NCBI RefSeq assembly: GCF_025677645.1
Contig: NZ_CP106879.1
Span: 2,728,001-2,792,000, forward strand
DNA length: 64,000 bases
Direction: 5' to 3'
Source of the DNA: Curtobacterium poinsettiae
GTDB lineage: Bacteria > Actinomycetota > Actinomycetes > Actinomycetales > Microbacteriaceae
Shown: positions 49,698 to 63,323 of the stretch, piece by piece
How the letters are laid out: the number at the start of each line of letters is the position of its first letter
How positions within the stretch are numbered: position 1 is the stretch's first letter
Translations under genes and position numbers: made by a program
The notes under the pieces: generated by a model
Database searches by the model: none
Seen by the model: the letters and a program-made list of their open reading frames with translations, nothing else
Told to the model about the DNA's origin: nothing

Positions 49698-50111
49698 CTA
49701 CGCCTCGGTCGTCTCGTCGGCGGTCTCGGCGTCGTCGGCCTTGGCGGCGGGCGCCGTCTTCTCCGACTTCGGCTTGAGGACGGCCTTCTTCGAGGAGTCG
49801 ACCTGGAAGGCCGGCTTCGGCTCGGCGACCTTGACCTTGGACTCGGTGTCCTTCTCGCCCTTGAACTTGGCCCAGTCGCCGGTCAGCTTGAGGAGGGCCG
49901 CGACCTGCTCGGTCGGCTGCGCGCCGACGCCGAGCCAGTAGAGCGCACGCTCGGACTCGATCTTGATGACCGAGGGCTCCTCGGTCGGGTGGTACTGACC
50001 GATCTCCTCGAGGACACGACCATCGCGCTTGGTGCGCGAGTCGGCGACGACGATGCGGTAGTAGGGCGCACGGATCTTACCGAGACGCTTCAGACGGATC
50101 TTGACAGCCAC
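49698..50111 (-). CDS. rpsP: 30S ribosomal protein S16
   Basis: S16 (137 aa) starts [44 protein letters not shown] and [19 protein letters not shown] are conserved. A Lys/Ala/Glu-rich tail of about 50 residues follows the core, longer than in E. coli (82 aa) but usual in actinobacteria. The start is GTG 50111, with GGAG five bases before it. It heads the operon with khpA, rimM and trmD. Confidence 0.96.
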
Positions 50112-50275
50112 AATTGCTCCTGTTTGCTTTCGTTGTGGTTGAACTGGAACCGCGGGCGTGGGGGCACACACGGCGAAAGCTCGAGAGAGATCGCTCACAG
50201 CTGGATAGAGGGTCGAGCTGCGGCGATTCGACCGTTCATTCTTGCAGATTCCCGGCCGTGATGCGAGCCGACTCG

Positions 50276-52411
50276 CTACGGCGCGAGGCGCCGCACCGCT
50301 TCGAGGGCCTCGGACGTCGCCCGGACCGCGTCGACGCTCCGTGCGTCACGCGCGCCGCCGACGACGGCGTACGGCACGCCGGCGGCCTGGAGGCCCGTGG
50401 CGAGTCCGTCGGGCGCGTCGCCCTCGGCGTCGCTCGCGCGCTCCTGCCCGGCGCAGACCACGACGCTGTCCGCCGGGACGCCGACCTCGTCCCCGTGCTC
50501 GTCGCGGATCCAGAGCACCCCGGGTTCGATGCGCAGGTACTCCTGCACGCCGCCGACCATCCGCACCCCGGCGTCCCGCAGCCGGCCGATCGCGACCCAG
50601 CGCGAGGTGATGCCGATCCCCTGGCCGAACTTGCCCGAACGCCGGAGCACCGTCACCTGCGACCCCGGCCGGGTGGTGCGCTGCGCCGCGGGGAGCCGCT
50701 GCGGCACGTCGCCGACGAGCTCCTCGGACACGTCGAGGTCCCAGCGGGCCGCGAACTCCGCGGCCCGGACGACCTCGTCGGGCGACTCGGTCAGGAACGC
50801 CGCGGTGTCCACGCCGATGCCACCGCCGCCGATGATCGCGACGGTGCCCTCGGGGACCCCCTGGCGGAGTGCCTGCTCGTAGGACAGCACGTGCGGCAGG
50901 TCGCTGCCGGGGACGTCGATGCTCCGCGGGACCACCCCGGCCGCGAGCACGACGGCGTCGCTGTCGACGAGGTCCGCAGCCGTGGCCGGGCGTCCGAGGT
51001 GGATCGTGGCGCCCCGCTCCGTGAGCTCGGCACGGGCGGACCGCACCGTGGCGGCGTAGTCCTCCTTGCCCGGGACGAGTGCGGCGAGGCCGAACTGGCC
51101 GCCGAGGCGGTCGGAGGCCTCCCAGACGGTGACGTCGTGGCCCCGTCGGGCGGCGTCCACCGCGGCGGCGAGGCCGGCCGGTCCGCCACCGACGACGTCG
51201 ACGCGCTTCGGGTCCGCGGTCGGCCGCGCGGGGAAGACCACCTCGCGGGCGGCTCGGGGGTTCACGAGGCACGACACCGGTGCGCCGATGATCGAGCGGT
51301 CGAGGCACGCCTGGTTGCAGCCGATGCAGGTGTTCACGAGGGCGAACCCGCCCGCGAGCGAGCGCGACACGATCGCGGGGTCGGCGAGGAACGGCCGGGC
51401 GAGGGCGACGGCGTCGATCAGGCCGTCGCTGAGGACGGCCTCGCCGTCGCGCAGGTCCGTCATCCGGTTCGATGCGATCACGCGGACGTCCGGGTGCGCG
51501 GACGAGCGCACCACCGCGGCGACCCGTGCCGCGTACGCCAGCCACGCCCCGTGCGGCACCGAGGCCTGCACGGTCGGGGTGCGGGACTCGTGCCAGCCGA
51601 TGCCGACCGAGATGCCGTCGAGTCCGAGCGGCAGCAGGTCGTGCACGAGCGCGTCGACCTCGTCGTCGGTCGACGAGCCGGGCATCAGGTCGGCACCGGA
51701 CAGCCGGATCGTCACGGCGAGCTCGGGCACCGCGGCGCGCACGGCTCGGACGACCTCGATCGCGAAGCGCCGACGCCGTTCCGCATCGCCGCCCCACTCG
51801 TCGTCGCGCAGGTTCGTCAGCGGCGACTGGAACTGGTTGATCAGGTACCCCTCGGACGCCATGATCTCGACGCCGTCGAACCCGATCGCGCGAGCGGTGC
51901 GGGCCGCGGCGGCGAAGTCCTCGATGGTCCGCTCGACCTCGGCCGACGTCAGCTCGGTCGGTACCACCCCGCGGGCGGCCGCCCACGGCAGGGCCGAGGG
52001 CGCCACGACGCGCTGCGGGTCACCGTGCCGGTCGACCATGCCCGACGCGAGCGCGTACCGCCCGGCGTGGAACAGCTGCGCGAGGATCGTCCCGCCCTCG
52101 TCGTGCACGGCGTCGACCGCCACCCGGAACCGCTCGTCGGCTCCCCCGACGCCGAACACCGCGAAGTCCGGACCGCCGCGGGCCTCGTCGTTCACCGCGA
52201 TGCCGCCGGTGATGATGCACGCCACCCCGCCGGCCGCCCGTTCGCGGTAGAAGGCGGCCATGCCGGCTCCGCCGTCGTCGTGCACCTCGAGCCCGGTGTG
52301 CATCGACCCCATCACCACCCGGTTCGCCAGGTGCAGGGGGCCGAGGGTCCAGGGTGACGCGACGGTCCGGAGGGACTCCGGCACGACGGGGGCGGAAGCG
52401 ACGCTGCTCAT
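50276..52411 (-). CDS. 2,4-dienoyl-CoA-reductase-like flavoprotein of the cyclohexanecarboxyl-CoA operon
   Basis: This 711-aa protein has the FadH layout: an FMN-binding OYE-type barrel (about 1-360), a [4Fe-4S] site (C-x2-C-x3-C-x11-C in CIGCNQACL...SCLVNP, about residue 365-380) and an FAD/NAD(P)-binding C-terminus with [18 protein letters not shown] and [14 protein letters not shown]. FadH reduces 2,4-dienoyl-CoA with NADPH. In Streptomyces ansatrienin clusters a 2,4-dienoyl-CoA-reductase homologue takes part in turning shikimate into cyclohexanecarboxyl-CoA. Here the ATG lies 4 bases beyond the ChcA-like stop, so it is the last gene of the operon. A role in reducing a cyclohexadienyl-CoA is inferred. 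Confidence 0.8.
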
Positions 52412-52415
52412 GCGC

Positions 52416-53261
52416 CTATTCTGCGGTGTCCGCGGCCGGGGCGTCGGCCGGCAGCACCGCGTCGCGGAGGGGCGACGTCGTGTCCGACCAGTACGGCGGG
52501 GCGATGACCGTGAGTCCGCCGTCGACCGAGAGCACCTGCCCGGTGATGTACCCGGCCTTGTCCGACAGCAGGAAGTCGACGGCGTCGGCCATGTCGTCGG
52601 CCGTCCCGGGGCGCTGCAGCGGGAGCTTCTCGAGCACCGTGTCCATCGGCGCCTGGCCGGGGACCTTCGTGTAGAAGTACTCGAGCGAGTCGGTGTCGAT
52701 GAGGCCGCCGTTCACCGCGTTGACGGTGATCTGACGCGGACCGAACTCCACCGCCATGTACTTCATGTAGGCCTCGCTCATCGCCTTGGCGGCACCGAGT
52801 GCGGCGTAGGTCGGGAACGCCCGGAGCGATCCGTACGAGGTCACGACGACGATGCGGCCACCACGGTCCATCAGCTCGGCAGCGCGTTGCGCCCCGAGCA
52901 CGAACGAGCGGGCGTTCGTGGCGTAGCTGCGGTCGAGGTGGTGCAGTTTGAGGTCCGCGACGGGCTTGAACGCGCTGGCGGCGGCGTTCGCGACGAACAT
53001 GTCGAGGCGTCCGTAGGTGTCGCGCACCAGGTCGAACAGGGCGTCGATCGACTCCGGCTGCTCGATGTCGACCTGCGCGGTGATTCCGTCGCCGCCCGCG
53101 GCCTTGACGTCGGCCAGCGACTCCTCGGCCAGGTCGGCGTTGCCCTTGTACGTCACCACGACGGTGACGCCGCGCCTGCCGAGCTTCTGTGCGAGCAGGC
53201 GGCCGATGCCGCGCGAAGCGCCCGTGATCAGTGCGATGGGTGCGTTGGTGGAGTCGGTCAC
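52416..53261 (-). CDS. chcA: FabL/ChcA-type enoyl reductase (1-cyclohexenylcarbonyl-CoA reductase candidate)
   Basis: This 281-aa SDR has GASRGIG (14-20) for NADP(H) and the enoyl-reductase arrangement Tyr152-x6-Lys159 (YAALGAAK), not the usual Y-x3-K. It resembles B. subtilis FabL around YMAVEFGPRQITVNAVNGG and IDTDSLEYF. Length and motif match ChcA of Streptomyces collinus (about 280 aa, NADPH), which reduces 1-cyclohexenylcarbonyl-CoA and related dienes. A general fatty-acid enoyl reductase is the alternative, but the neighbours are an EPSP-synthase/CoA-ligase fusion, an acyl-CoA dehydrogenase and a FadH-like gene, which fits cyclohexanecarboxyl-CoA synthesis. The start is GTG 53261 with AGAGGA upstream. 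Confidence 0.7.
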   Translation of the reverse strand: MTDSTNAPIALITGASRGIGRLLAQKLGRRGVTVVVTYKGNADLAEESLADVKAAGGDGITAQVDIEQPESIDALFDLVRDTYGRLDMFVANAAASAFKPVADLKLHHLDRSYATNARSFVLGAQRAAELMDRGGRIVVVTSYGSLRAFPTYAALGAAKAMSEAYMKYMAVEFGPRQITVNAVNGGLIDTDSLEYFYTKVPGQAPMDTVLEKLPLQRPGTADDMADAVDFLLSDKAGYITGQVLSVDGGLTVIAPPYWSDTTSPLRDAVLPADAPAADTAE

Positions 53262-53289
53262 TGGTGTCCTCTGCTGACGTGGTTGCGGA

Positions 53290-53333
53290 CGGACTGGAGG
53301 CGCGGGGCGGGCCCGCCACGGGCCTCCGGTCCG
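53290..53333 (-). terminator. Hairpin inside the cyclohexanecarboxyl-CoA operon
   Basis: A 12-bp stem (CGGACTGGAGGC at 53290-53301 with 53322-53333, one G-U) lies between the acyl-CoA dehydrogenase stop and the chcA-like start. It is like the GGAGGC hairpins at operon ends, so it may terminate or attenuate transcription and lower the downstream reductases. Confidence 0.6.
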
Positions 53334-53348
53334 GTGGTTGGTGACGGT

Positions 53349-54527
53349 CTAGAACCCGGCCTGGCCGGTGACGACGGCGCGGCCGACGATCAGCTTCTGG
53401 ATCTCGTTGGTGCCCTCTTCGAAGCGCTGCGCGCGTGCGTCGCGGTAGACGCGCTCGATGGCGTTGCGCTTCCAGTAGCCCTGCCCGCCGTGCACCTGCA
53501 GGGCCTTGTCGGTGACGCGCGCGAGCATGTCGACGGCGACCATCTTCGAGGCGCTGGACAGCGTGCCGGCGTCGGGGCGGTCTGCTTCGTAGGCGCGGGC
53601 GGCCTCGAGCACCAGGGCGCGGGCGGCGGCGATGTCGGCGTAGTTCTCGGCCAGGTAGAACTGGATCGCCTGGCGGCTGGAGAGCCGCTTGCCGAACGTC
53701 TCGCGCTTGTTGGCGTACTCGACGGCGAGCTCGTTCGCCCGCTCGGCGAGCCCGACGGCGCTCATCGCGACGGACACCCGGCTCGGCAGCAGGAAGCCGC
53801 CGAGCGCGACCTCGAGGCCCTGGCCTTCCGCGCCGAGGCGGGCGCTGGCGGGGATCGGGGTGTCGGTGAACCGCAGGATCGCGTGGTCGGTGCCGCGGAT
53901 GCCCATCGTGTCGGAGTCGTCGATCACCTCGGCACCCGGCAACCCGCTGTTCGGCATGAGGAACGCGACCGTGCCGTCCTGGCCGGTGGTGCCCTCCAGC
54001 CGAGCGGCGATGAGCCAGTGGTCGGCCTGCACGCCGAAGGTGATGAGGTGCTTCTCGCCGTTCATCACGTAGGTGTCGCCCTCACGCCGGACCGTCGTGC
54101 GGATGTCCGCTCCGGTGCCCGCGGTGGCCTCGGTCAGGGTGAACGCGACGAGCGTGTCGCCGGCGACGCTCGGCTTGACGACCTGCTCGATCTGCTCCGG
54201 CGTCGCGTAGGGGGCCATCGCGCGCCAGGTGCCGTTGATGACGTGCACGAGCATGCGGATGGAGGCGTGCGAGCGGGAGATGACCTCCATGATCTCGAGG
54301 TACCGCGAGAAGGGGATCGCCCGTCCGCCGAGCTCCGTCGGGGCTGCGAGGCTGAGCCACCCGCGCTCCTTGAGCTCCTGGAACAGCTCCGGGGCGACCC
54401 GGCCGGTGCGTTCGATCTCGTCCGCCCACTCCTCGCCGGGGCCTCGGACCCACTCGGTGACCTCGGTCTTGAGCTGCTGGAAGGCGGCTTCGTCGAAGCC
54501 GGTGCTCGTCTGCTCGACGATCGTCAT
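53349..54527 (-). CDS. Acyl-CoA dehydrogenase of the cyclohexanecarboxyl-CoA operon
   Basis: This 392-aa FAD enzyme of the acyl-CoA dehydrogenase family has FTLTEATAGTGADIRTT (flavin-binding), QVHGGQGYWKRNAIERVYRDAR and the C-terminal EEGTNEIQKLIVGRAV, whose Glu is the catalytic-base position of medium-chain enzymes. It starts at ATG 54527, overlapping the fusion gene by 4 bases. Cyclohexanecarboxyl-CoA clusters contain such a gene; here it probably moves hydrogen on a cyclohexenyl- or dihydroxy-cyclohexadienyl-CoA, which is inference. A plain beta-oxidation enzyme is the alternative. Confidence 0.8.
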   Translation of the reverse strand: MTIVEQTSTGFDEAAFQQLKTEVTEWVRGPGEEWADEIERTGRVAPELFQELKERGWLSLAAPTELGGRAIPFSRYLEIMEVISRSHASIRMLVHVINGTWRAMAPYATPEQIEQVVKPSVAGDTLVAFTLTEATAGTGADIRTTVRREGDTYVMNGEKHLITFGVQADHWLIAARLEGTTGQDGTVAFLMPNSGLPGAEVIDDSDTMGIRGTDHAILRFTDTPIPASARLGAEGQGLEVALGGFLLPSRVSVAMSAVGLAERANELAVEYANKRETFGKRLSSRQAIQFYLAENYADIAAARALVLEAARAYEADRPDAGTLSSASKMVAVDMLARVTDKALQVHGGQGYWKRNAIERVYRDARAQRFEEGTNEIQKLIVGRAVVTGQAGF

Positions 54528-57500
54528 CGTGTCTCGTTCTCCTTCGTCGCGACGAGCGCGGCCGCCTGCTCGCGCAGGACGTTCTTCTGGACCTTGCCGA
54601 CCGCGTTGCGCGGCAGCTCGGTGGTGTACTCGAGTCGTTCCGGCCAGTAGTACTTGCTCACGCCGGCCGTGTCGAGGTACTGCTGCATCCCGGCGAAGTC
54701 GAGCGGCTCGTCCGCGCGGGCGTTCACGACCCAGGCGCACGCACGTTCACCGAGCCGTTCGTCCGGCATCGCCACGATCGCGACGTCCGTGACCAGCGGG
54801 TGCTGGTACAGCAGGTTCTCGATCTCGACGACGGGGATCTTCTCGCCGCCGCGGTTGATGACGTCCTTCACGCGTCCGGTGATCGACAGGAAGCCCTTCT
54901 CGTCGACCTTCGCCAGGTCGCCGGTGCGGTACCAGCCGTCCGCGGTGAACACGTCGTCGGTCAGGTCCGGACGGTCGAGGTAGCCGGCGAACATCGTGGG
55001 CGAGTGCAGCTCGAAGTTGCCCTCGGTCCCGGCGGGCAGCTCGATCCCCGCGTCGTCGACGATGCGGATGGCGATGCCCGGCAGTGCCCGGCCGTCGTGG
55101 CCGTACGCGTCGGCGGGGTCGTCGCCCGGGCTGGACAGGGCCCCGAGACACGTCTCGCTCGTCCCGAAGGCGCCGAGGATGGCGCTGCCGAGCACCGTGC
55201 TCGCCCGCTGGGCCAGTGCGCGGGGCACCGCGGCCCCCGTCGGCACGAAGATCCGGAGCGACTCGGGCCGCGGAGCGCCGGCCTCGACCAGGTCGACGAG
55301 GTCGGTCAGGAACGGCGTCGCGCACTGCACGAAGGACGCCCGGGCGACGCCGAACGCCTGCTCGAGTGCGACCCGGCCGTCCCACACCGGCTGGATGACC
55401 TGCGGCGCACCGAGCCGGAACGCCAGCAGCATGCCGTACAGGAACCCGGTCTGGTGGGCGAGCGGCGAGGGGATGTAGATGCGGTCGGCGCTGGTCAGAC
55501 CGGACTGCGCCACGTGCATGGCGGTCGCGAGCCCGAGCGTCCGGTGCGGGTGCTGCACGCCCTTCGGCTCCCCCGTGGTGCCGGAGGTGAAGAGCAGCTG
55601 GCAGACGTCGTCCGGACCGGGAGCGTGCGACGCGATCTCGTCGACGTCGACGTGCACGGCGGCGAGGGCGTTCTCGAAGTAGCGCCAGTGCCAGTCGCTC
55701 GCCACCACCCGCTCCAGGGCATCGGCGGGCAGCGGCGGCTGGTTCGTCGGGGTGTCCCCCTGCCCGCGGGCCTCGGCGCGGAGCACGATGACGTGCTCGA
55801 GCGACAGGCGGCGGTCCTGCGCGGCGGCCTCGTCGATGACGTCGAGGAGTTCGAGCGCGGGACGGCGCTTCCGGAACACGTTCGGCAGGAAGACCACGCG
55901 GGCCTTCGAACGCGCGAGCGTCATGGTGGTCTCGCGTGGACCGAACACCGGCATGATCGGGGTCGCGACGGCGCCGATCTGGATCGTACCGAGGGTGATC
56001 GAGACGAACTCGCGCCAGTTCGGCAGCTGCATCGCGACGGATTCGCCGGTGCGCACGCCGAGTTCGAGCAGCAGGGCGGAGACCCGGTCGGCCTCGTCCT
56101 GCAGCTCCTTCCACGTGGTGTTCACGGGCGTCGCACCGCCGACCTCGATCACCGCGAGGCCGTCGGGGTCGGTCTGCGACAGGGCACGGACCCGCTCGCT
56201 CAGGACGAGGGGGTCGGCGTCGACGCCGGCGAGCTCGGGCACAGCGACGGGGGGCGGCGGGGCGGGGGATTGCGGAGCGGCGGGCTCCGGGACGGCGGGC
56301 TGCGCGACCGGCTGGTCGGTGGGCTCGGGCACCGCCGACGTGTCGAGGTCACCGGCAGCCGCGCTGACCAGGGGCGTGCCCAGGTGCGTGCGGACCCCGT
56401 CGGCCTCGGCGGCGTCGATCCGGTCGTCCCGCGCCACCTGCGCTGCGAGCCGGTCACCGACGGACATGTCGAGCCCGACGGAGTTCATCGCCTCGAGGAA
56501 CGTCGGGTAGGAGATCCGGTAGGCACGCGGGTAGGTCAGGCCGGACACCCCGTCGGCACCCGACGCAGCGACCGCGAGGGACATCAGCACGCGGTGGTCG
56601 TTGAACGAGGACATCGGCGCACCGTGCAACCCGGCTGCACCGACGCCGGTGACCCGCAGCTCGTCCGCACCCTGCTCGGCACGGCCGCCCATCCGGTTGA
56701 GCTGGAGCATCGCCGCGACGCGGTCGGACTCCTTCAGCCGGATGTGCGCCACGTTCCACAGCCGGCTGGTGCCCTCGGCGAAGGTGGCCATCGTCGACAG
56801 CACGGGCAGCAGGTCCGGGATCGGACGGCAGTCGACGTCGAGCGGCCGGAGCGGTGACCCGTCGTGCTCGATCCGGACGAAGCCGGTCTCCTCGTCGATC
56901 CGCATCGGCACGCCCATCGCGGTGGCGAGGTCGAGGAACTCGCTCTCCGGGTGGTCCGTCTCGGCCGTCGTCGTGGCCGTCATGCCGCGCAGCAGCACGT
57001 TCGACTCGCGGGTGCCGGCCGCCGCGATGCCGAACGCAGCGGAGCCGATGTCGGGCGGGATGACGTAGTCGTGCGGGGTGGCCTGTTGGCCCGCCGGGAT
57101 CCGGTACTCGAGCCAGTCGTCGGAGACCTCCACCGTCAGGCCGAACTGCCGCATCATCCGCACGGTGAGCTCGACGTAGGGCTGCTCGTTGAGCCGTCCG
57201 CCGGTGATGTGGATCCGGGTCTCGTGCTCGGCGAACGGTGCCACCAGCAGCAGCCCGGACACCCACTGCGACAGCGTGCCGGCGATCGTCACGTCACCGC
57301 CGCGCGGGCGCCTCGGCTGCACGGTGACGGGCGGGCAGTCGTTCGTCGCCTCGAGCTCCACACCCATCTGCGTCAGCGAGGTGAGCAGCGCCTTGATCGG
57401 CCGGCGCTGGAAGTACTTCATGCCGGACAGGGTCATCGGGCGGTCGGCCAGCGAGGCGAGCCCGGTCATGAAGTAGAGCGTGGTGCCCGAGGACCCCATG

Positions 57501-57793
57501 TTGAGCAGGCCGTCGGCACCCCGCGAGCCGTGGTCCACCACGTCGGTCGCCTCGTACCGGCCGCCCAGTCCGGTCACGTGGTACGCGTTCCCACGACGCT
57601 TGACGTCCACCCCGAGCGCGCGGAGCGTGCCCACGGTCCACTCCACCTGTCGCGTCGCGCTCACCCCGGAGACGACACTCGTCCCCTTCGCGAGCGACGC
57701 GAGCACCAGCGCACGGTGCGCGTGGTACTTCGAGACCGGGATGTCAAGTTCTCCGACGAGCGGGGCGTTCGTCCCGCGGACCACCAACTGCAT
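54524..57793 (-). CDS. EPSP-synthase-like and acyl-CoA-ligase fusion for shikimate activation
   Basis: This 1089-aa protein joins an AroA-like domain (1-440) to an acyl-CoA synthetase (about 525-1089) by a Pro/Ala linker (480-520). AroA positions include K22 and R27 (SKYHAHR), SSGTT (101-105), D327 (RPIPD), KESDR (354-358) and NDHR (398-401). Against E. coli, S23 is Tyr, S169 is Leu and K411 is Ile427, so ordinary EPSP synthesis is unlikely. The ligase half has LLFTSGTTGEPKG (733-747), YRTGDL and the C-terminal Lys region PRNAVGKVQK. Separate homologues of both halves occur in the shikimate-to-cyclohexanecarboxyl-CoA pathway. The start is ATG 57793 with GAAGAGG before it. Confidence 0.8.
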   Translation of the reverse strand: MQLVVRGTNAPLVGELDIPVSKYHAHRALVLASLAKGTSVVSGVSATRQVEWTVGTLRALGVDVKRRGNAYHVTGLGGRYEATDVVDHGSRGADGLLNMGSSGTTLYFMTGLASLADRPMTLSGMKYFQRRPIKALLTSLTQMGVELEATNDCPPVTVQPRRPRGGDVTIAGTLSQWVSGLLLVAPFAEHETRIHITGGRLNEQPYVELTVRMMRQFGLTVEVSDDWLEYRIPAGQQATPHDYVIPPDIGSAAFGIAAAGTRESNVLLRGMTATTTAETDHPESEFLDLATAMGVPMRIDEETGFVRIEHDGSPLRPLDVDCRPIPDLLPVLSTMATFAEGTSRLWNVAHIRLKESDRVAAMLQLNRMGGRAEQGADELRVTGVGAAGLHGAPMSSFNDHRVLMSLAVAASGADGVSGLTYPRAYRISYPTFLEAMNSVGLDMSVGDRLAAQVARDDRIDAAEADGVRTHLGTPLVSAAAGDLDTSAVPEPTDQPVAQPAVPEPAAPQSPAPPPPVAVPELAGVDADPLVLSERVRALSQTDPDGLAVIEVGGATPVNTTWKELQDEADRVSALLLELGVRTGESVAMQLPNWREFVSITLGTIQIGAVATPIMPVFGPRETTMTLARSKARVVFLPNVFRKRRPALELLDVIDEAAAQDRRLSLEHVIVLRAEARGQGDTPTNQPPLPADALERVVASDWHWRYFENALAAVHVDVDEIASHAPGPDDVCQLLFTSGTTGEPKGVQHPHRTLGLATAMHVAQSGLTSADRIYIPSPLAHQTGFLYGMLLAFRLGAPQVIQPVWDGRVALEQAFGVARASFVQCATPFLTDLVDLVEAGAPRPESLRIFVPTGAAVPRALAQRASTVLGSAILGAFGTSETCLGALSSPGDDPADAYGHDGRALPGIAIRIVDDAGIELPAGTEGNFELHSPTMFAGYLDRPDLTDDVFTADGWYRTGDLAKVDEKGFLSITGRVKDVINRGGEKIPVVEIENLLYQHPLVTDVAIVAMPDERLGERACAWVVNARADEPLDFAGMQQYLDTAGVSKYYWPERLEYTTELPRNAVGKVQKNVLREQAAALVATKENETR

Positions 57794-57921
57794 GCGTACC
57801 TCTTCCCTGTAGGAACATTTCAACGGTACGCCCGGTGTGGAACTAATTGCGGAAGGATCCGCACGATCGGGACAGTGCTTCGTTGTGCGTGTCCGACAAG
57901 GACCCGGGCAGGATGGACGGC

Positions 57922-59052
57922 ATGGACATCCGCTTCACCGAGTCCCGCCCGTCGACCATCGGCGTCGAGTGGGAACTCCCCCTGGTCGACCGGGCGACCG
58001 GCGACCTCGCTCCCCGCGCCCCCGCCGTCATCGCCGCCGTGCACGAGCGGCTCGGTGACCACGACCGCGTCACCGAGGAACTCCTGACGAACACGGTCGA
58101 GGTCGTCTCGAGCGTCCACGACCGCGTGGGGGCTGCGACGAGCGAGCTGTCCGGCATCATCGGCGAGGTCATCGACGCCGCCGAGCCGCTCGACGCCCAG
58201 GTGATGTGCTCCGGCACGCACCCGTTCGCGGTGTGGGACCAGCAGGAGATCACCCCGGACAGCGAGCACTACACGACCCTCATCGACCGCACCCGCTGGT
58301 GGGGACGCCAGATGCTCATCTGGGGCGTGCACGTGCACGTCGGCATCGACGACCGCGACAAGGCCGTGCCGATCATGAACGCGATGCTCGCCTACGTCCC
58401 GCACCTGCAGGCGTTCACCGCGTCGAGCCCGTTCTGGGGCGGCACCGACACCGGGTACGCCTCGAACCGCGCACTCATGTTCCAGCAGCTCCCGACCGGC
58501 GGGCTCCCGCCGCAGCTCGGCGCCTGGGCGAACTTCGAAGAGGTCGTCGGCGACCTCACGCACACCGGCGTCATCGACGGGGTGAAGGACCTGCGGTGGG
58601 ACATCCGACCGTCGCCGGGCTGGGGCACCCTGGAGAACCGGGTGTCCGACGGCATCTCGACCCTGCACGAGGTCGGCGCCGTCACCGCGCTCGTGCAGTG
58701 CCTGGTGACCGCTTGCTCGGACCGGCTCGACGCCGGTGAGACCCTGCCCACGATGCAGCCCTGGTTCATCCGCGAGAACAAGTGGCGCGCGGCCCGCTAC
58801 GGCATGGAGGCCGAGATCATCACGAACGTCGCCGGCGACGAGCGGCTCGTGACCGACGAGGTGCACGACCTGGTGCAGCGGCTCGACCCGATCGCCGAGC
58901 GGCTCGGCTGCCAGGACGAACTGCACCACCTCGACACCATGATCGAGCGCGGCGCCTCGTACCAGCGGCAGCTGCAGGTCGCGCGGGAGAACGGTGGCGA
59001 CCTGCGCGCCGTGGTCCGCCACCTGGTGACCGAGTTCCGCGAAGCGCTCTAG
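57922..59052 (+). CDS. Glutamate-cysteine ligase-like protein (GCS2/YbdK family)
   Basis: This 376-aa protein belongs to the GCS2 carboxylate-amine ligase family. IGVEWELPLVDRATG holds the family start (GVExE), LTNTVEVVSSVHDRVG the following acidic strand, MCSGTHPFAVW the active-site SGTHP-like motif, and HVHVGIDD the His-x-His motif. Members make gamma-glutamylcysteine or other gamma-glutamyl amides. The start is set at ATG 57922, with CAGGAT seven bases before; ATG 57913 would add three residues. It is divergent from the fusion gene. Confidence 0.85.
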   Translation: MDIRFTESRPSTIGVEWELPLVDRATGDLAPRAPAVIAAVHERLGDHDRVTEELLTNTVEVVSSVHDRVGAATSELSGIIGEVIDAAEPLDAQVMCSGTHPFAVWDQQEITPDSEHYTTLIDRTRWWGRQMLIWGVHVHVGIDDRDKAVPIMNAMLAYVPHLQAFTASSPFWGGTDTGYASNRALMFQQLPTGGLPPQLGAWANFEEVVGDLTHTGVIDGVKDLRWDIRPSPGWGTLENRVSDGISTLHEVGAVTALVQCLVTACSDRLDAGETLPTMQPWFIRENKWRAARYGMEAEIITNVAGDERLVTDEVHDLVQRLDPIAERLGCQDELHHLDTMIERGASYQRQLQVARENGGDLRAVVRHLVTEFREAL

Positions 59053-59137: not shown

Positions 59138-59189
59138 CACTTTCCATCGCGCGTGCGATGGGAAGGAACGTCGCGGCGCGACCACGAAC

Positions 59190-59231
59190 GGACGGGAGGC
59201 CCGGTGCCAGCTGGCACCGGGCCTCCCGTCC
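59190..59231. terminator. Palindromic terminator before the TPR gene
   Basis: A 42-bp perfect palindrome with core GGAGGCCCGGTGCCAGC, identical in its centre to the copies at 25451 and 61713. It lies about 140 bases after the GCS2 stop and 30 bases before the TPR promoter. Confidence 0.75.
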
Positions 59232-59260
59232 TGGGGGCATCGGCAGTCCACGGCGAACGC

Positions 59261-59266
59261 TACAGT
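59261..59266 (+). promoter_or_regulatory. Probable -10 box for a leaderless TPR-gene transcript
   Basis: TACAGT ends 6 bases before the GTG at 59273, with no ribosome-binding site in the gap. Confidence 0.5.
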
Positions 59267-59272
59267 TCCCCT

Positions 59273-60376
59273 GTGGCGGGGGAGGCAGCACGGCGCGGAC
59301 CGGCGACGGTGATCCGTGCCGGCGCGCTCGTCGACGCCGGTCGACCGGAACAGGCACTCGCCGAGGTCAGGGCGGTCGAGCACGACGAAGGCGAATCGAT
59401 CGCCGGACAGCGCGTGCGTGCCCTGGCGCTGCTCGCGCTCGACCAGCCGGACGCGGCGTGCGAAGCTGCTCGACGAGCGGTCGCTCTCGCGCCGGGTGAC
59501 AGCACCTCCCTCCGTGTGCTGTCGACCGCCCTGCTCCGCTCTGGGGACCGGATCGGAGCCGTCGAGGCCGCCCGTCGTTCGGTCGCCGCGGACCCGGGAT
59601 CGTGGCAGGCGCACGCTGCGCGAGTCGATGCCCTCTGGCTCGGCGAGCAGAACCGCTTGGAGGCGATGCGGGCGAGCTTCGAGGCCGTCCGCTTGGCTCC
59701 CACCGAACCGTTCGTGCACCGCCAGCACGGCGACCTCCTGCTCGCCGTCGGACGGCAACGGGAAGCGCAGGACGCGTACCGCCGGGGGCTCGCGCTCGCT
59801 CCGGAGGACCGAGGGGCACGGCACAACCTGGCGGTGGCACGGCTGCGGCACGGCCACGAGAGCGAGTCCGCGCTGGCCTTCGCGGGCATCCTGTCGACGA
59901 ACCCGACGGACGCCACAGCACTGCGGAACCTCATGGTCGGCGTCGTCAACCCACTCGGCCGGATCCGGGTGACCCTCGGCGGCGGCGCAGTGTTCACCGG
60001 CTTGGAGTTCCTGGCGACGATCGACAGCGGGGATCCGGGGATGGTGCGGTGGGCCACCACCTTCCCGCCGGTGTTCGCCCTCGCCGTGATCGCCTTCATC
60101 GCCCTCCGGTTCACCTCCGAGGCACGGCCTCGACTCGCGTTCCTCGTCTCGGTCGCTCGACGAGCGGTACCGGGTTGGGGACTCGTGGCGCTGGTCCTCG
60201 GTGTCGCGACCGCGATCTCCGTGACCGGGCTGTTCCTCCCACCGGTCGTTGCCCTCGTCGCGCAGGGTCTCGTGTTCGTCGGGGTCGTCATCGCGTCCGT
60301 CCTGATGAAGCGCATCCTGCGCGCCTTCCCGAGGACCCGCCCAGCGGTGCACGAGGACGACGATGACGACGGGTGA
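59273..60376 (+). CDS. TPR protein with C-terminal membrane helices
   Basis: This 367-aa protein has an N-terminal TPR-like helical repeat region (about 8-225) with units such as AGALVDAGRPEQALAEVRAV and LRVLSTALLRSGDRIGAVEA. The C-terminal half has about four hydrophobic segments (about 243-345), then an acidic end. The start is GTG 59273. The next gene, 86 bp on, encodes an AAA ATPase that also begins with a TPR. The pairing suggests a membrane platform that recruits the ATPase; no named family is recognised. Confidence 0.65.
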   Translation: MAGEAARRGPATVIRAGALVDAGRPEQALAEVRAVEHDEGESIAGQRVRALALLALDQPDAACEAARRAVALAPGDSTSLRVLSTALLRSGDRIGAVEAARRSVAADPGSWQAHAARVDALWLGEQNRLEAMRASFEAVRLAPTEPFVHRQHGDLLLAVGRQREAQDAYRRGLALAPEDRGARHNLAVARLRHGHESESALAFAGILSTNPTDATALRNLMVGVVNPLGRIRVTLGGGAVFTGLEFLATIDSGDPGMVRWATTFPPVFALAVIAFIALRFTSEARPRLAFLVSVARRAVPGWGLVALVLGVATAISVTGLFLPPVVALVAQGLVFVGVVIASVLMKRILRAFPRTRPAVHEDDDDDG

Positions 60377-60462
60377 CGAGCTCGCCCTCGCGACCGAACT
60401 GCGCCTGGCCTGACGCCGCGTCGCGCGACACCACCGAACCGACCGCTCCGAGAGGACTCCCG

Positions 60463-61710
60463 ATGAACGACGACCCGGTCCACGACGACCCGGTGATCGG
60501 CGCGCTCCGACGCGCGGTCGACAGCGCGCCCCACGACGTCGCACTGCGTGTCCACCTCGGTCGTCTGCTCCTCGAAGCCGGACGTCCGGCTGAGGCGACC
60601 GCCGAAGCGGCAGCCGCACTCGCCATCGCGCCGACCGACGTCGCGGCGGGCGCGCTCATGCTGGCGGTGCTGCGCCCGGGTGCCGCCACGGCACGCCCCG
60701 CGGACGCGCCGACCGACGCTCCCGCCGCTGGTGCACCGTCCGACTTCGACTGGCACGCCGCGGAACAGCAGGTCGAGCACATCGTCGAACCGTCCTTCGT
60801 CGAGGACTCGGCTCCCGACCCGGACCTGCCGTCGGCGTTCTCGGTCGAGCCGTCGGAGGTCCGGTTTGCGGACGTGGGCGGGATGGAGGCCGTCAAGCAG
60901 CGGCTCACCGTCGCGTTCCTCGCCCCGCTCGCGAACCCCGAGCTCCGGGCGTTGTACGGCAAGAGCCTCCGCGGCGGTCTGCTGCTGTACGGCCCTCCGG
61001 GGTGCGGGAAGACGTTCATCGCCCGGGCTGTCGCCGGCGAGCTCGGCGCACGCTTCATGAGCGTCTCCATCACCGACGTCCTCGACCCCTACCTCGGCGC
61101 GAGCGAGCAGAACATCAGGGCGGTCTTCGAGGCCGCACGGGCTGCGGCCCCGTGCGTGGTGTTCTTCGACGAGGTCGACGCGCTCGGCCAGCGACGGAGC
61201 CAGACCCGCAGCTCGCACGTGCGCGGGATGGTGAACCAGCTGCTCACCGAACTCGACGGCGTCGACGGCGGGAACGAGGGCGTGTTCGTGCTGGCTGCGA
61301 CGAACCAGCCGTGGGACGTCGACCCCGCGCTCCGTCGTCCGGGCCGGCTGGACCGGACGGTGCTCGTCCTGCCGCCGGACGCCCCGGCACGCGACGCGAT
61401 CTTCCGCGGGCACCTCCGCGACCGACCGGTCGAGGGCATCGACCCAGCAGCGCTCGCGAAGCGGACCGAGGGTTTCTCCGGTGCGGACATCGCCTACGTG
61501 TGCGAGGTCGCCGCCGAGCACGCGCTCATGGACAGCATCACGACGGGCACTGCACGGCTCATCGGGATGCCCGATCTGCTCGCCGCCCTGGGTGAGGTCC
61601 GGCCCTCCACGAGCGCCTGGCTCGAGACGGCTCGGAGCGTCGTCCTGTTCGGCGAGGACGACGGGACGTACGCCGACCTGCGCGCGTACCTCAAGAAGTC
61701 CAAGCGCTGA
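60463..61710 (+). CDS. TPR-AAA ATPase
   Basis: This 415-aa protein has a TPR-like N-terminus (about 8-70), a Pro/Asp-rich linker and a classic AAA domain (about 135-400). Walker A is GPPGCGKTF, Walker B is VVFFDEVDALG, and the second region of homology is AATNQPWDVDPALRRPGRLDR with its arginine fingers. FVEDSAPDPDLPS marks the linker. The AAA core is like FtsH/p97-type ATPases but no protease or substrate domain follows. ATG 60463 follows GAGAGGA. With the TPR-membrane gene before it, it makes a likely two-gene system whose clients are unknown. Confidence 0.8.
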   Translation: MNDDPVHDDPVIGALRRAVDSAPHDVALRVHLGRLLLEAGRPAEATAEAAAALAIAPTDVAAGALMLAVLRPGAATARPADAPTDAPAAGAPSDFDWHAAEQQVEHIVEPSFVEDSAPDPDLPSAFSVEPSEVRFADVGGMEAVKQRLTVAFLAPLANPELRALYGKSLRGGLLLYGPPGCGKTFIARAVAGELGARFMSVSITDVLDPYLGASEQNIRAVFEAARAAAPCVVFFDEVDALGQRRSQTRSSHVRGMVNQLLTELDGVDGGNEGVFVLAATNQPWDVDPALRRPGRLDRTVLVLPPDAPARDAIFRGHLRDRPVEGIDPAALAKRTEGFSGADIAYVCEVAAEHALMDSITTGTARLIGMPDLLAALGEVRPSTSAWLETARSVVLFGEDDGTYADLRAYLKKSKR

Positions 61711-61772: not shown

Positions 61773-63323
61773 CTAGCGACCCAGGAACTTCTGCAGGCTC
61801 GCGAGCTCTTCCTCGGTCGGTGCCTTGCCGCCTTTGGCGCCCCCGAGTCCGAGGCCGGACCCCTGCGGGGCCTGCTGCGGCGCAGCCGCCGCGCCGGCAG
61901 CCAAGGCCGCGCGCTTGGCGGGGTTGCCCACCTTCGACTTCTTCTTGCCGCCCTGCTGCTGCTTCTTGCCGCCGTGCATGCCCGGGATCGGACCCATGCC
62001 CGGCATCTGCGGCACGCCACCGCGAGCGACGGTCTTCATCATCTTGGCGGCCTGCTCGAAGCGGTTGACCAACGCGTTGACCTCGGTGACGGTCGATCCG
62101 GCACCGCGCGCGATGCGCAGACGGCGCGAACCGTTCAGGAGCTTCGGGAGCTCGCGCTCCTGGGGCGTCATCGACTGGATGATCGCCTCGGTGCGGACGA
62201 TCTCGCGCTCGTCGAAGTTGTCGAGTGCCTCGCGCATGCCCTTCGCTCCGGGGAGCATGCCGAGCATGCCCTTGATGGAGCCGGCCTTGCGGAGCTGCTG
62301 CATCTGCTGCAGGAAGTCGTTCAGGGTGAAGTTGTCGGTCGCGATCTTGTCGGCGACCTTGCGGGCCTCTTCCTCGTCGAAGGCGCCCTGCGCCTGTTCG
62401 ATGAGGGACAGGATGTCGCCGAGGTCGAGGATGCGGCTCGCCATGCGGTCCGGGTGGAACGGCTCGAAGTCGTCGAGCGACTCACCCGTCGACGCGAACA
62501 TGATCGGGCGGCCGGTCACACTGGCCACCGACAGGGCGGCACCACCGCGGGCGTCACCGTCGAGCTTCGAGAGCACGACGCCGGTGAAGTCGACGCCTTC
62601 CTGGAAGGCGCGGGCCGTGTTGACGGCGTCCTGACCGATCATCGCGTCGATGACGAAGAGGACCTCGTCCGGGTCGACGGCCTTGCGGATGTTCGCGGCC
62701 TGCTTCATCAGCTCGGCGTCGACACCGAGTCGACCGGCCGTGTCGACGATGACGGTGTCGTACTGCTGGTCGATCGCGGCCTTGACGGCGTTCTTGGCGA
62801 CCTTGACCGGGTCGCCGACTCCGTTGCCGGGCTCGGGCGCGAAGACGTGCACGCCAGCCTGCTCGCCGACGACCTGCAGCTGCTGCACGGCGTTCGGACG
62901 CTGCAGGTCCGCCGCGACGAGCATCGGGGTGTGGCCGTCCTTCTTGAGCCACTTGCCGAGCTTGCCCGCGAGGGTCGTCTTGCCGGCACCCTGGAGACCC
63001 GCGAGCATGATGACCGTCGGCGGCTTCTTCGCGAACTCGAGCCGTCGCTGCTGCCCGCCCAGGATGCCGACGAGTTCCTCGTTGACGATCTGGACGACCT
63101 GCTGCGCCGGGTTGAGCGCGCGGTTGACCTCGTCGGAGAGGGCACGCTCGCGCACCGATGCGGTGAACGCCTTGACGACCTCGAGCGCGACGTCGGCGTC
63201 GAGGAGCGCCCGCCGGATCTCGCGGACGGTGCCGTCGACGTCGGACGGAGTCAGCCGACCCTTGCTCCGCAGATTGCGGAAGGTCTCGGTCAGCCGATCG
63301 GAGAGTGAACCGAATTGCGCCAT
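61773..63323 (-). CDS. ffh: Signal recognition particle protein Ffh
   Basis: Ffh (516 aa) is the SRP54 GTPase that targets membrane proteins with 4.5S RNA. The NG domain shows GLQGAGKTTLAGKLGKWL (P-loop), DTAGRLGVD and TGVVLSKLDGDARGGAAL. The M domain (about 325-430) has the RIARGAGSTVTEVN RNA-binding segment, followed by a Met/Gly/Lys-rich end. ATG 63323 starts MAQFGSLSDRL; TAGAAT nine bases before it suggests an almost leaderless message. Neighbouring rpsP is displaced by about 11 kb from its usual place nearby. Confidence 0.97.
   Translation of the reverse strand: MAQFGSLSDRLTETFRNLRSKGRLTPSDVDGTVREIRRALLDADVALEVVKAFTASVRERALSDEVNRALNPAQQVVQIVNEELVGILGGQQRRLEFAKKPPTVIMLAGLQGAGKTTLAGKLGKWLKKDGHTPMLVAADLQRPNAVQQLQVVGEQAGVHVFAPEPGNGVGDPVKVAKNAVKAAIDQQYDTVIVDTAGRLGVDAELMKQAANIRKAVDPDEVLFVIDAMIGQDAVNTARAFQEGVDFTGVVLSKLDGDARGGAALSVASVTGRPIMFASTGESLDDFEPFHPDRMASRILDLGDILSLIEQAQGAFDEEEARKVADKIATDNFTLNDFLQQMQQLRKAGSIKGMLGMLPGAKGMREALDNFDEREIVRTEAIIQSMTPQERELPKLLNGSRRLRIARGAGSTVTEVNALVNRFEQAAKMMKTVARGGVPQMPGMGPIPGMHGGKKQQQGGKKKSKVGNPAKRAALAAGAAAAPQQAPQGSGLGLGGAKGGKAPTEEELASLQKFLGR

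Follow-up and report, generated by a model that had tools for sequence, protein, structure and literature searches.

The question raised by this locus is which product is made by four leftward genes, A-B-C-D (57793-50276, minus strand), that occupy a position between two core genes, ffh and rpsP, on the chromosome of Curtobacterium poinsettiae. The window, that is, the whole stretch of DNA analyzed, is 64,000 nucleotides long. Since the 1970s, omega-cyclohexyl fatty acids have been recognized in the membranes of acidophiles and a small number of mesophiles. We consider it quite probable that the operon is a cyclohexanecarboxyl-CoA (CHC-CoA) cassette diverting shikimate, and that FabH uses its product as a starter, leading to omega-cyclohexyl fatty acids.

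Gene content of the cassette

The main features of the locus are as follows.

49698..50111, minus strand: rpsP (ribosomal protein S16), core gene flanking the locus, next to D on its downstream side
50276..52411, minus strand: gene D, FadH-type 2,4-dienoyl-CoA reductase (FMN, FeS and FAD/NAD domains), plmM-like; from profiles, PDB relative and motifs
52416..53261, minus strand: gene C, FabL/ChcA-type SDR enoyl-CoA reductase with Y-x6-K; from profiles, motif and PDB relative
53349..54527, minus strand: gene B, acyl-CoA dehydrogenase family flavoprotein, plmL-like; from domain profiles, with an ATGA overlap with A
54524..57793, minus strand: gene A, EPSP-synthase-like/CoA-ligase fusion, plmJK-like; from domain profiles, family alignment and an order as in plmJK
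57794..57846, no strand: divergent spacer of 53 bases separating A from the GCS2-family gene and presumed to hold the promoter
57847..59052, plus strand: GCS2-family (glutamate-cysteine ligase 2) gene, divergent upstream neighbor of the operon
61773..63323, minus strand: ffh (SRP54), core-gene flank

The coordinates, strand and domain calls proposed for the four genes in the sequence-only reading were borne out by an ORF check and profile searches, as was their coupling by overlaps or small gaps: A and B overlap by 4 bases, C and D are 4 bases apart, and 87 bases separate B from C. A consensus scan of positions 50000-58000 for sigma-70-type promoters yielded zero promoter-like sites, and the one terminator-like site in this range, inside A on the plus strand, was not above the shuffle level.

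The product of gene A (1089 aa) combines an EPSP-synthase-like domain (approximately residues 10-440; PF00275, E 1.9e-77) with an AMP-forming CoA ligase (approximately 540-1075; PF00501/PF13193). It is named 3-phosphoshikimate 1-carboxyvinyltransferase in NCBI and UniRef and passes the AroA equivalog model (306.8 bits, cut-off 287.25); a separate AroA is present in the same genome. Residues S23, S169 and S197 (E. coli numbering), which we take to form the shikimate-3-phosphate site of EPSP synthase, are all kept by this separate AroA. In the 80-row alignment of the A family, the position of S23 is Y in all 79 rows bearing a residue, S197 is replaced by E in 80 of 80, and S169 falls in a one-residue gap in every row, the placement of which is alignment-dependent. 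Among the residues K22, R124, Q171, D313, E341, R344, R386 and K411, presumably catalytic or involved in PEP binding (same numbering), the first seven are retained and K411 is changed to I in 78 of 80 rows; in the genome's own AroA, which is probably misaligned there, D313 is E and K411 falls in a gap. Overall, S23, N26, S197 and K411 are altered in nearly all rows.

Gene B, with the domains PF02771/PF02770/PF00441, has its likely start at the ATG at 54527, overlapping the stop codon of A, and ranks top among the five PF00441 proteins of the genome. The product of gene C (281 aa, adh_short_C2) carries a Y-x6-K motif (TACGCCGCACTCGGTGCCGCCAAG), which we take as the signature of ChcA-like, FabL-type SDR proteins. 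Its best NCBIfam model is FabL, at 226.8 bits and under the cut-off of 328, and its sole PDB relative at E <= 1e-40 is 3oic, an enoyl-ACP reductase [NADPH]. Finally, the closest PDB relative of D (711 aa) is the 2,4-dienoyl-CoA reductase 1ps9, in comparison with which D retains the Tyr, His and four-Cys motifs, presumably with the roles that they have in enzymes of this kind.

Conservation and known counterparts

Among the 80 best related loci, 65 contain A-B-C-D, five A-B-D and five A-B-C, and another five lie on short contigs. A one-strand order shared by 65 of 80 loci is far beyond chance; generic matches lacking a conserved four-gene linkage, named in the sequence-only reading as a refutation of the proposal, are thus not what the loci show. 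The linkage is kept across phyla. Cassettes without C occur in Cellulomonas/Arthrobacter and those without D in other Arthrobacter and their kin, and thus the module can be trimmed. Of 249 Microbacteriaceae genomes sampled, 29 contain A, and it is these 29 that also contain C at 62% identity or more. Fifteen loci have a FabF gene next to the cassette, and in four Eremiobacterota loci a DAHP synthase is at most two genes away from A; profiles were run on L054, L065 and L078. Gene A is a single ORF in 79 of 80 loci, as judged by a simple ORF caller and with some ORFs ended by contig ends, and is divided into two ORFs in four Herbiconiux/Cnuibacter loci; H. moechotypicola has the set with A split in this way, and one genome of the Herbiconiux group (G070) gave no match to A. 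The known producer Propionibacterium cyclohexanicum is not named in a listing of 120 of 957 homologs, and there is no Alicyclobacillus among the matches listed in the homolog searches. Among 3048 matching plasmid records, there is none with a single matching region that spans 80% of A.

The cassette itself is already known from Streptomyces. Table 2 of PMC5852498 gives plmJK-plmL-chcA-plmM as the CHC-CoA genes of the phoslactomycin/lactomycin clusters. The plmJK-plmL-chcA-plmM, pnP1-P4 and lmP1-P4 sets, where the starter is CHC-CoA, agree with the present operon in the kind and order of all four genes (PMC5852498, the part available), so that the earlier suggestion of shared families with Streptomyces shikimate-to-CHC-CoA clusters holds. 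That source counts six genes for CHC. Unlike those clusters, the Curtobacterium operon is flanked by ffh and rpsP, and no modular polyketide synthase was detected in the genome.

In the Streptomyces locus L050, A-B-C-D are found beside an AHBA-synthase-like DegT protein, a class-II DAHP synthase and an A-PCP-TE NRPS, identified by profiles run on this locus only; L051, L053 and L073 have A-B-C-D and the same neighbor clusters. These four Streptomyces loci are read as probable ansatrienin-type clusters, a known counterpart being the ansatrienin CHC genes of Streptomyces collinus. Their A proteins are 53-54% identical to that of the window (approximately 52-54% over all compared Streptomyces loci), the context there being antibiotic rather than lipid. 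The omega-cyclohexyl pathway of Alicyclobacillus, Curtobacterium pusillum and P. cyclohexanicum has the same expected end product, and C. pusillum has the operon. The literature searched, open-access only and in part seen as excerpts, names no genes for this biosynthesis in the three taxa or elsewhere outside antibiotic producers, which fits the remark in the sequence-only reading that it has little genetic description beyond Streptomyces.

Predicted pathway and its client

The chemistry, step order, product and acceptance of CHC-CoA by FabH we infer to be as follows. The cassette would convert shikimate to CHC-CoA. The ligase half of A would form the CoA thioester of shikimate or dehydrated shikimate, and its EPSP-like half could assist in the loss of the first hydroxyl from the ring. 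The later eliminations and double-bond reductions would fall to B, C and D, with C a candidate for alpha,beta-reduction up to the last such step and D for the reduction of a dienoyl-CoA. The delta3-delta2 enoyl-CoA isomerase of the CHC-CoA route is ChcB. A dedicated ChcB was not found in the genome, where PF00378 gives just MenB and a FadB-like protein; this step, not encoded in the operon, might be provided by the FadB-like protein, the sole candidate seen. FabH of the fatty acid synthase, of which the genome has two paralogs, would then take CHC-CoA as the starter, the predicted end product being 11-cyclohexylundecanoate ('cyclohexyl-C17:0').

The assignment of the operon to the ring starter unit is supported by the gene-for-gene match with the Streptomyces set. 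Given the separate AroA, the lack of a modular polyketide synthase in a PF00109 search (two FabF-like proteins and a weak overlap with a FabH were found) and the lack of a BadI-like hydrolase in the PF00378 search, CHC-CoA most likely goes to the fatty acid synthase and from there into membrane lipids.

The presence of omega-cyclohexyl fatty acids in C. pusillum, stated in the original proposal, is confirmed by the available text of PMC3426160 and PMC5023266, and the operon is present in three C. pusillum genomes (L012, from strain ATCC 19096, L027 and L046). In one Streptomyces, CHC-CoA itself is a precursor of omega-cyclohexyl fatty acids, which make up 3.1% of the total (PMC4147253, available part). 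According to the portion of PMC10011130 at hand, Herbiconiux 'may' have cyclohexyl-C17:0. Several points speak against the lipid assignment. Other acids are listed as major in the five Herbiconiux strains of that source, and we know of no report of omega-cyclohexyl lipids in several carriers (C. flaccumfaciens, C. luteum, Acidipropionibacterium thoenii and Frondihabitans). A carrier-specific KAS III, which would point to a dedicated FabH, was not found, the mean number of KAS III proteins being 4.67 in 36 carriers and 5.25 in 24 non-carriers. The lack of a dedicated ChcB, the Herbiconiux-group genome without a match to A, and the listings without P. cyclohexanicum and Alicyclobacillus weigh in the same direction.

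Several other readings of the operon were considered. Its CHC-CoA or CHC could go mainly into an exported acid, an acyl cap or a small secondary metabolite. In Streptomyces the cassette serves antibiotic synthesis, the patchy presence in the genus suits a dispensable product, and the DpgA-like and OleA-type KAS III proteins of the genome are other possible clients of CHC-CoA. This reading is nevertheless unlikely in view of the C. pusillum lipids, the genome without a detected modular polyketide synthase, and a neighborhood in which eight of nine profiled genes are GCS2, TPR, AAA or translation/SRP genes (the ninth has no match). Instead of CHC-CoA, the product could be a ring acid that is hydroxylated or only in part reduced (cyclohexene or dihydroxycyclohexene carboxyl-CoA), in line with the operon lacking an isomerase and with the trimmed cassettes elsewhere. 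This seems decidedly unlikely, since the full four-gene set present in the window is that of clusters with the CHC-CoA starter.

The bad-ali degradation of cyclohexanecarboxylate employs a CoA ligase and an acyl-CoA dehydrogenase of related families in the opposite direction; among the models, that of cyclohexanecarboxylate-CoA ligase gives the best score with the ligase half of A (417 bits), and models of CHC-CoA dehydrogenase also detect B. Such a catabolic role is highly improbable and was rejected: the scores are far under the equivalog cut-offs, those of AliA/AliB included (417 of 792, 190 of 650 and 136 of 575), BadI is missing, and the pathway has no place for an EPSP-like domain. The BadI/BadK candidates of the genome are limited to MenB (201.7 bits against the BadI model, cut-off 467.6) and the FadB-like protein. 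Accidental proximity of a generic aroA and beta-oxidation genes, to which the database name of A and its AroA score would point, is refuted by the conserved linkage across phyla; with the separate AroA and the altered S23, N26, S197 and K411 positions, its probability is practically negligible.

Returning to the CHC-CoA cassette, we tentatively suggest a joint reading, somewhat less probable than not. The cassette may be an old chromosomal membrane-lipid module of Actinomycetota and uncultured Eremiobacterota (there with FabF and DAHP synthase alongside), one branch of which was borrowed by Streptomyces antibiotic clusters. The EPSP-like half may be a distinct enzyme, often misnamed AroA, whose phosphate pocket is remodeled and whose substrate is shikimate without the phosphate, or the thioester of shikimate. 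In Curtobacterium, the lipid trait may have been switched off several times as A-B-C were cleanly lost, with D living on in a second function. The analysis corrects a common database name, by which a CHC-pathway enzyme is called AroA. The cassette may also serve as a marker for predicting omega-cyclohexyl lipids in uncultured phyla and allows a test of the role of the lipid in plant- and soil-dwelling bacteria.

Presence and absence within Curtobacterium

Gene A was detected in 36 of 60 Curtobacterium genomes. In 21 genomes without A, A-B-C are absent at the site flanked by ffh and rpsP and D is retained, with the GCS2-family gene flanking the gap. One Curtobacterium locus, L140, has C and D but neither A nor B. 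On the tree, this distribution requires seven changes of state, five of them forced by well-supported branches. The pattern within one genus constitutes a natural experiment on which genes make the lipid. Where compared, D of the strains without A-B-C is under purifying selection. Since D persists in these strains, it is not private to the pathway, and the assumption that it is was rejected.

In the strains without A-B-C, a short stretch before D is similar to the 3' end of gene C of the window, a resemblance that is not taken as evidence of deletion. The stretch could be left over from C or be the promoter of D itself.

Operon architecture and its Streptomyces counterpart

The operon comprises four leftward genes, A to D, and the domain profiles and PDB relatives of their products agree with the gene assignments of the sequence-only reading. 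The genes and their flanks are as follows.

57793-54524, minus strand: gene A, EPSP-synthase-like domain fused to an AMP-forming CoA ligase (PF00275, PF00501, PF13193)
54527-53349, minus strand: gene B, acyl-CoA dehydrogenase; its start ATG overlaps the TGA stop of A
53261-52416, minus strand: gene C, FabL-like reductase with Y-x6-K; nearest PDB entry, the enoyl-ACP reductase 3oic
52411-50276, minus strand: gene D, FadH-type reductase; nearest PDB entry, the 2,4-dienoyl-CoA reductase 1ps9
57847-59052: GCS2-family gene, divergent from the operon
59153-61710: TPR-repeat gene and AAA ATPase gene, between the GCS2 gene and ffh
61773-63323: ffh, flank of the operon
Downstream flank: rpsP, rimM and trmD

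In genome coordinates the window corresponds to G000:C1:2728001-2792000, and the nearest named genome to it is that of C. flaccumfaciens LMG 3645 (98% in A). The TPR-repeat and AAA ATPase genes vary among related strains, being present in loci L122, L127 and L132 and absent from L009.

In kind and order, by which the likeness is judged, A-B-C-D is the set given in Table 2 of PMC5852498: an AMP-dependent synthetase and ligase (lmP1/pnP1/plmJK), a short-chain-CoA dehydrogenase (lmP2/pnP2/plmL), the cyclohexenylcarbonyl-CoA reductase (lmP3/pnP3/ChcA) and an NADH:FMN oxidoreductase (lmP4/pnP4/plmM); the same source counts six genes for formation of the CHC starter. The system is the Streptomyces cyclohexanecarboxyl-CoA (CHC-CoA) cassette, here chromosomal and PKS-free. 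In the window's own genome, PF00109 matches two FabF-like proteins and, weakly, part of one FabH, which leaves the genome with no modular PKS by this search, and PF00378 matched MenB and a FadB-like protein only, that is, neither BadI nor a dedicated ChcB. The PF00275 proteins are four, namely AroA (L001, 345.6 bits), A and two MurA-like proteins, and those of PF08541 are two FabH, one OleA-type (PRK09258) and one DpgA-like protein. The OleA-type and DpgA-like KAS III genes lie at G000:C1:3552307 and G000:C1:1534048 (L007, L008).

The A fusion is named 3-phosphoshikimate 1-carboxyvinyltransferase by NCBI and UniRef, and some members are named cyclohexanecarboxylate-CoA ligase by JGI. In an alignment of 80 family rows with E. 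coli AroA (29% identity; E. coli numbering), K22 and R27 were kept in all 79 rows that have a residue at the position, and G96, R124, S170, Q171, D313, K340, E341, R344, D384, H385 and R386 in 80 of 80. S23 is replaced by Y and N26 by H (79/79 rows with any residue there), R100 by Y and S197 by E (80/80), a one-residue gap of alignment-dependent placement falls at S169 (80/80), and I stands at K411 (78/80). The control, AroA of the window's genome, keeps S23, N26, R100, S169 and S197 and differs at D313, N336, K340 and K411 in this alignment; K411 therefore carries little weight. With the functional roles that we assume for these AroA residues, the pattern suggests that the catalytic core may still act on a shikimate-like ring, the 3-phosphate pocket having been replaced. 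This signature is apparently new, as far as we know the open-access literature.

Relatives of the cassette and their neighbors

A scan of genome contigs yielded 241 relatives of A; the analysis used the 80 best. Among these 80 loci, A-B-C-D occur in order on one strand in 65, C is absent in five (Cellulomonas, Arthrobacter), D is absent in five (Arthrobacter and kin), and the contig ends too early for a gene-order call in five. Among the names in the titles of cassette records are Curtobacterium, Frondihabitans, Subtercola, Lacisediminihabitans, Gryllotalpicola, Humibacter, Luteimicrobium, Kocuria, Acidipropionibacterium, Microlunatus, Streptomyces, Sinomonas, Conexibacter, Acidothermus and Eremiobacterota. 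In the tree of A (62 rows, 18 near-duplicate or short loci omitted; a quick method with midpoint root and a long-branch warning from the program), the window's clade contains Microbacteriaceae, Luteimicrobium, Kocuria and Acidipropionibacterium, with Homoserinimonas outside, and four AHBA-linked Streptomyces loci form one clade within Streptomyces. The trimmed cassettes without C (L060, L061, L083, L084, L086) form one clade and those without D (L067, L068, L069, L071, L082) another; thiolase and FadB-like genes lie upstream in all five D-less loci (profiles run on L067). Two records, P0022 (named Neobacillus citreus) and P0057 (named Sphingomonas sp. LR61), encode proteins that share 84-86% identity with A of the window; both records are probably misidentified or contaminated.

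In L050 the genes around the cassette encode a DegT-type aminotransferase, a class-II DAHP synthase and an A-PCP-TE protein; these neighbor clusters are shared with L051, L053 and L073 (by clustering, the profiles being run on L050 alone), and from their gene content we read the four as candidate ansatrienin-type clusters. Of the 80 loci, 16 contain a FabF-type ketosynthase cluster (profiles on L054, L065 and L078), which by position adjoins the cassette in 15 of these, the exception being L080. The FabF gene is downstream of D in Streptomyces, Acidothermus and L076; it is upstream of A in L065, L070, L078, L081 and L088 (the last judged by room on the contig), and divergent in L079. Cassettes of Eremiobacterota MAGs are L065, L070, L076, L077, L078, L081 and L088, with an adjacent FabF in six of the seven; a DAHP synthase lies at most two genes from A in 4/7, several of these loci being short (profile on L078). 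The pairing of the cassette with FabF, which stands for fatty acid elongation and lies on differing sides, and with DAHP synthase, which points to shikimate supply, supports a shikimate-fed lipid role. The Eremiobacterota cassettes that are linked to FabF and DAHP synthase are apparently new to the open-access literature known to us, and the cassettes of this group predict omega-cyclohexyl lipids in an uncultured phylum.

Probable link to omega-cyclohexyl lipids

The CHC-CoA and lipid role proposed in the sequence-only reading is very probably right. The gene set is the Streptomyces CHC-CoA cassette, and its lipid end we infer. Against a lipid role, we know of no report of omega-cyclohexyl lipids in several carriers other than C. 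pusillum. Little description of such an operon outside Streptomyces was found in the open-access literature. The operon is present in three C. pusillum genomes (L012, L027, L046), and the presence of omega-cyclohexyl fatty acids in this species, also claimed earlier, is borne out by PMC3426160 and PMC5023266. According to PMC4147253, CHC-CoA in a Streptomyces feeds omega-cyclohexyl fatty acids (3.1% of total), which were fivefold higher in an asuC15 mutant. A Herbiconiux description states that 'Cyclohexyl-C17:0 may be present', other acids being the major ones in the five strains covered there (PMC10011130). Genome G151, which matches H. moechotypicola by an identical C protein, has all four functions, with A divided between two separate neighboring ORFs; among 249 sampled Microbacteriaceae genomes, G070, of the same genus code, has no A match. 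Loci L175-L178, from the Herbiconiux group and Cnuibacter, encode the EPSP-like half and the ligase half as two neighboring ORFs in different frames.

Recurrent absence of A-B-C and retention of D in Curtobacterium

With at most 12 candidates scored per genome, A was found in 36 of 60 Curtobacterium genomes, the window's own included (34 of 56 of good quality). The rpsP region was fetched for 24 genomes without an A match: A-B-C are missing and the GCS2 gene adjoins D in 21, A and B are missing with C and D kept in one (L140), and the contig ends too early in two; D, whole or partial, adjoins rpsP in all 24. Both ffh and rpsP were clustered at 20 of the 80 loci, including Frondihabitans, Lacisediminihabitans and Humibacter; these flanks were also seen in Gryllotalpicola and not at Subtercola L030 or Homoserinimonas L072. 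To us, both the ffh-rpsP locus of the cassette and the repeated lack of A-B-C in strains that retain D appear new in the open-access literature.

The ffh and rimM tree has 48 rows, one for the window, 26 for named carriers and 21 for non-carriers, among which L140 is counted; on it, carrier state changed at least seven times (6-7 in bootstrap; well-supported branches force 5). Its five outgroup rows are carriers from the A scan, so that the ancestral state does not follow from the tree by itself; loss is favored by the common site and the retention of D, and some regain of A-B-C by recombination may also have occurred. Among the 249 Microbacteriaceae genomes, a D match of at least 57% occurs in 24, all of which also have A. 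Two more genomes with A have D at 48-49%, three (G067, G149, G212) have A and no D match at threshold, and nine A-less genomes have D-like proteins at 45-48%. As the closer matches always accompany A, D most likely arrived with A-B-C and then outlived them.

In the Curtobacterium loci L119-L140, from which A-B-C are missing except that L140 keeps C, D lies between the GCS2 gene and rpsP, and the group comparisons show purifying selection on it. In strains without A-B-C, D keeps its motifs, and its median pN/pS is 0.15, 0.23 and 0.21 in three non-carrier groups (28, 28 and 3 pairs; L119 and L139-L142 left out), compared with 0.21 and 0.19 in two carrier groups and 0.06-0.09 for ffh. The kept motifs and low pN/pS indicate that D serves a function independent of A-B-C, perhaps that of an ordinary dienoyl-CoA reductase.
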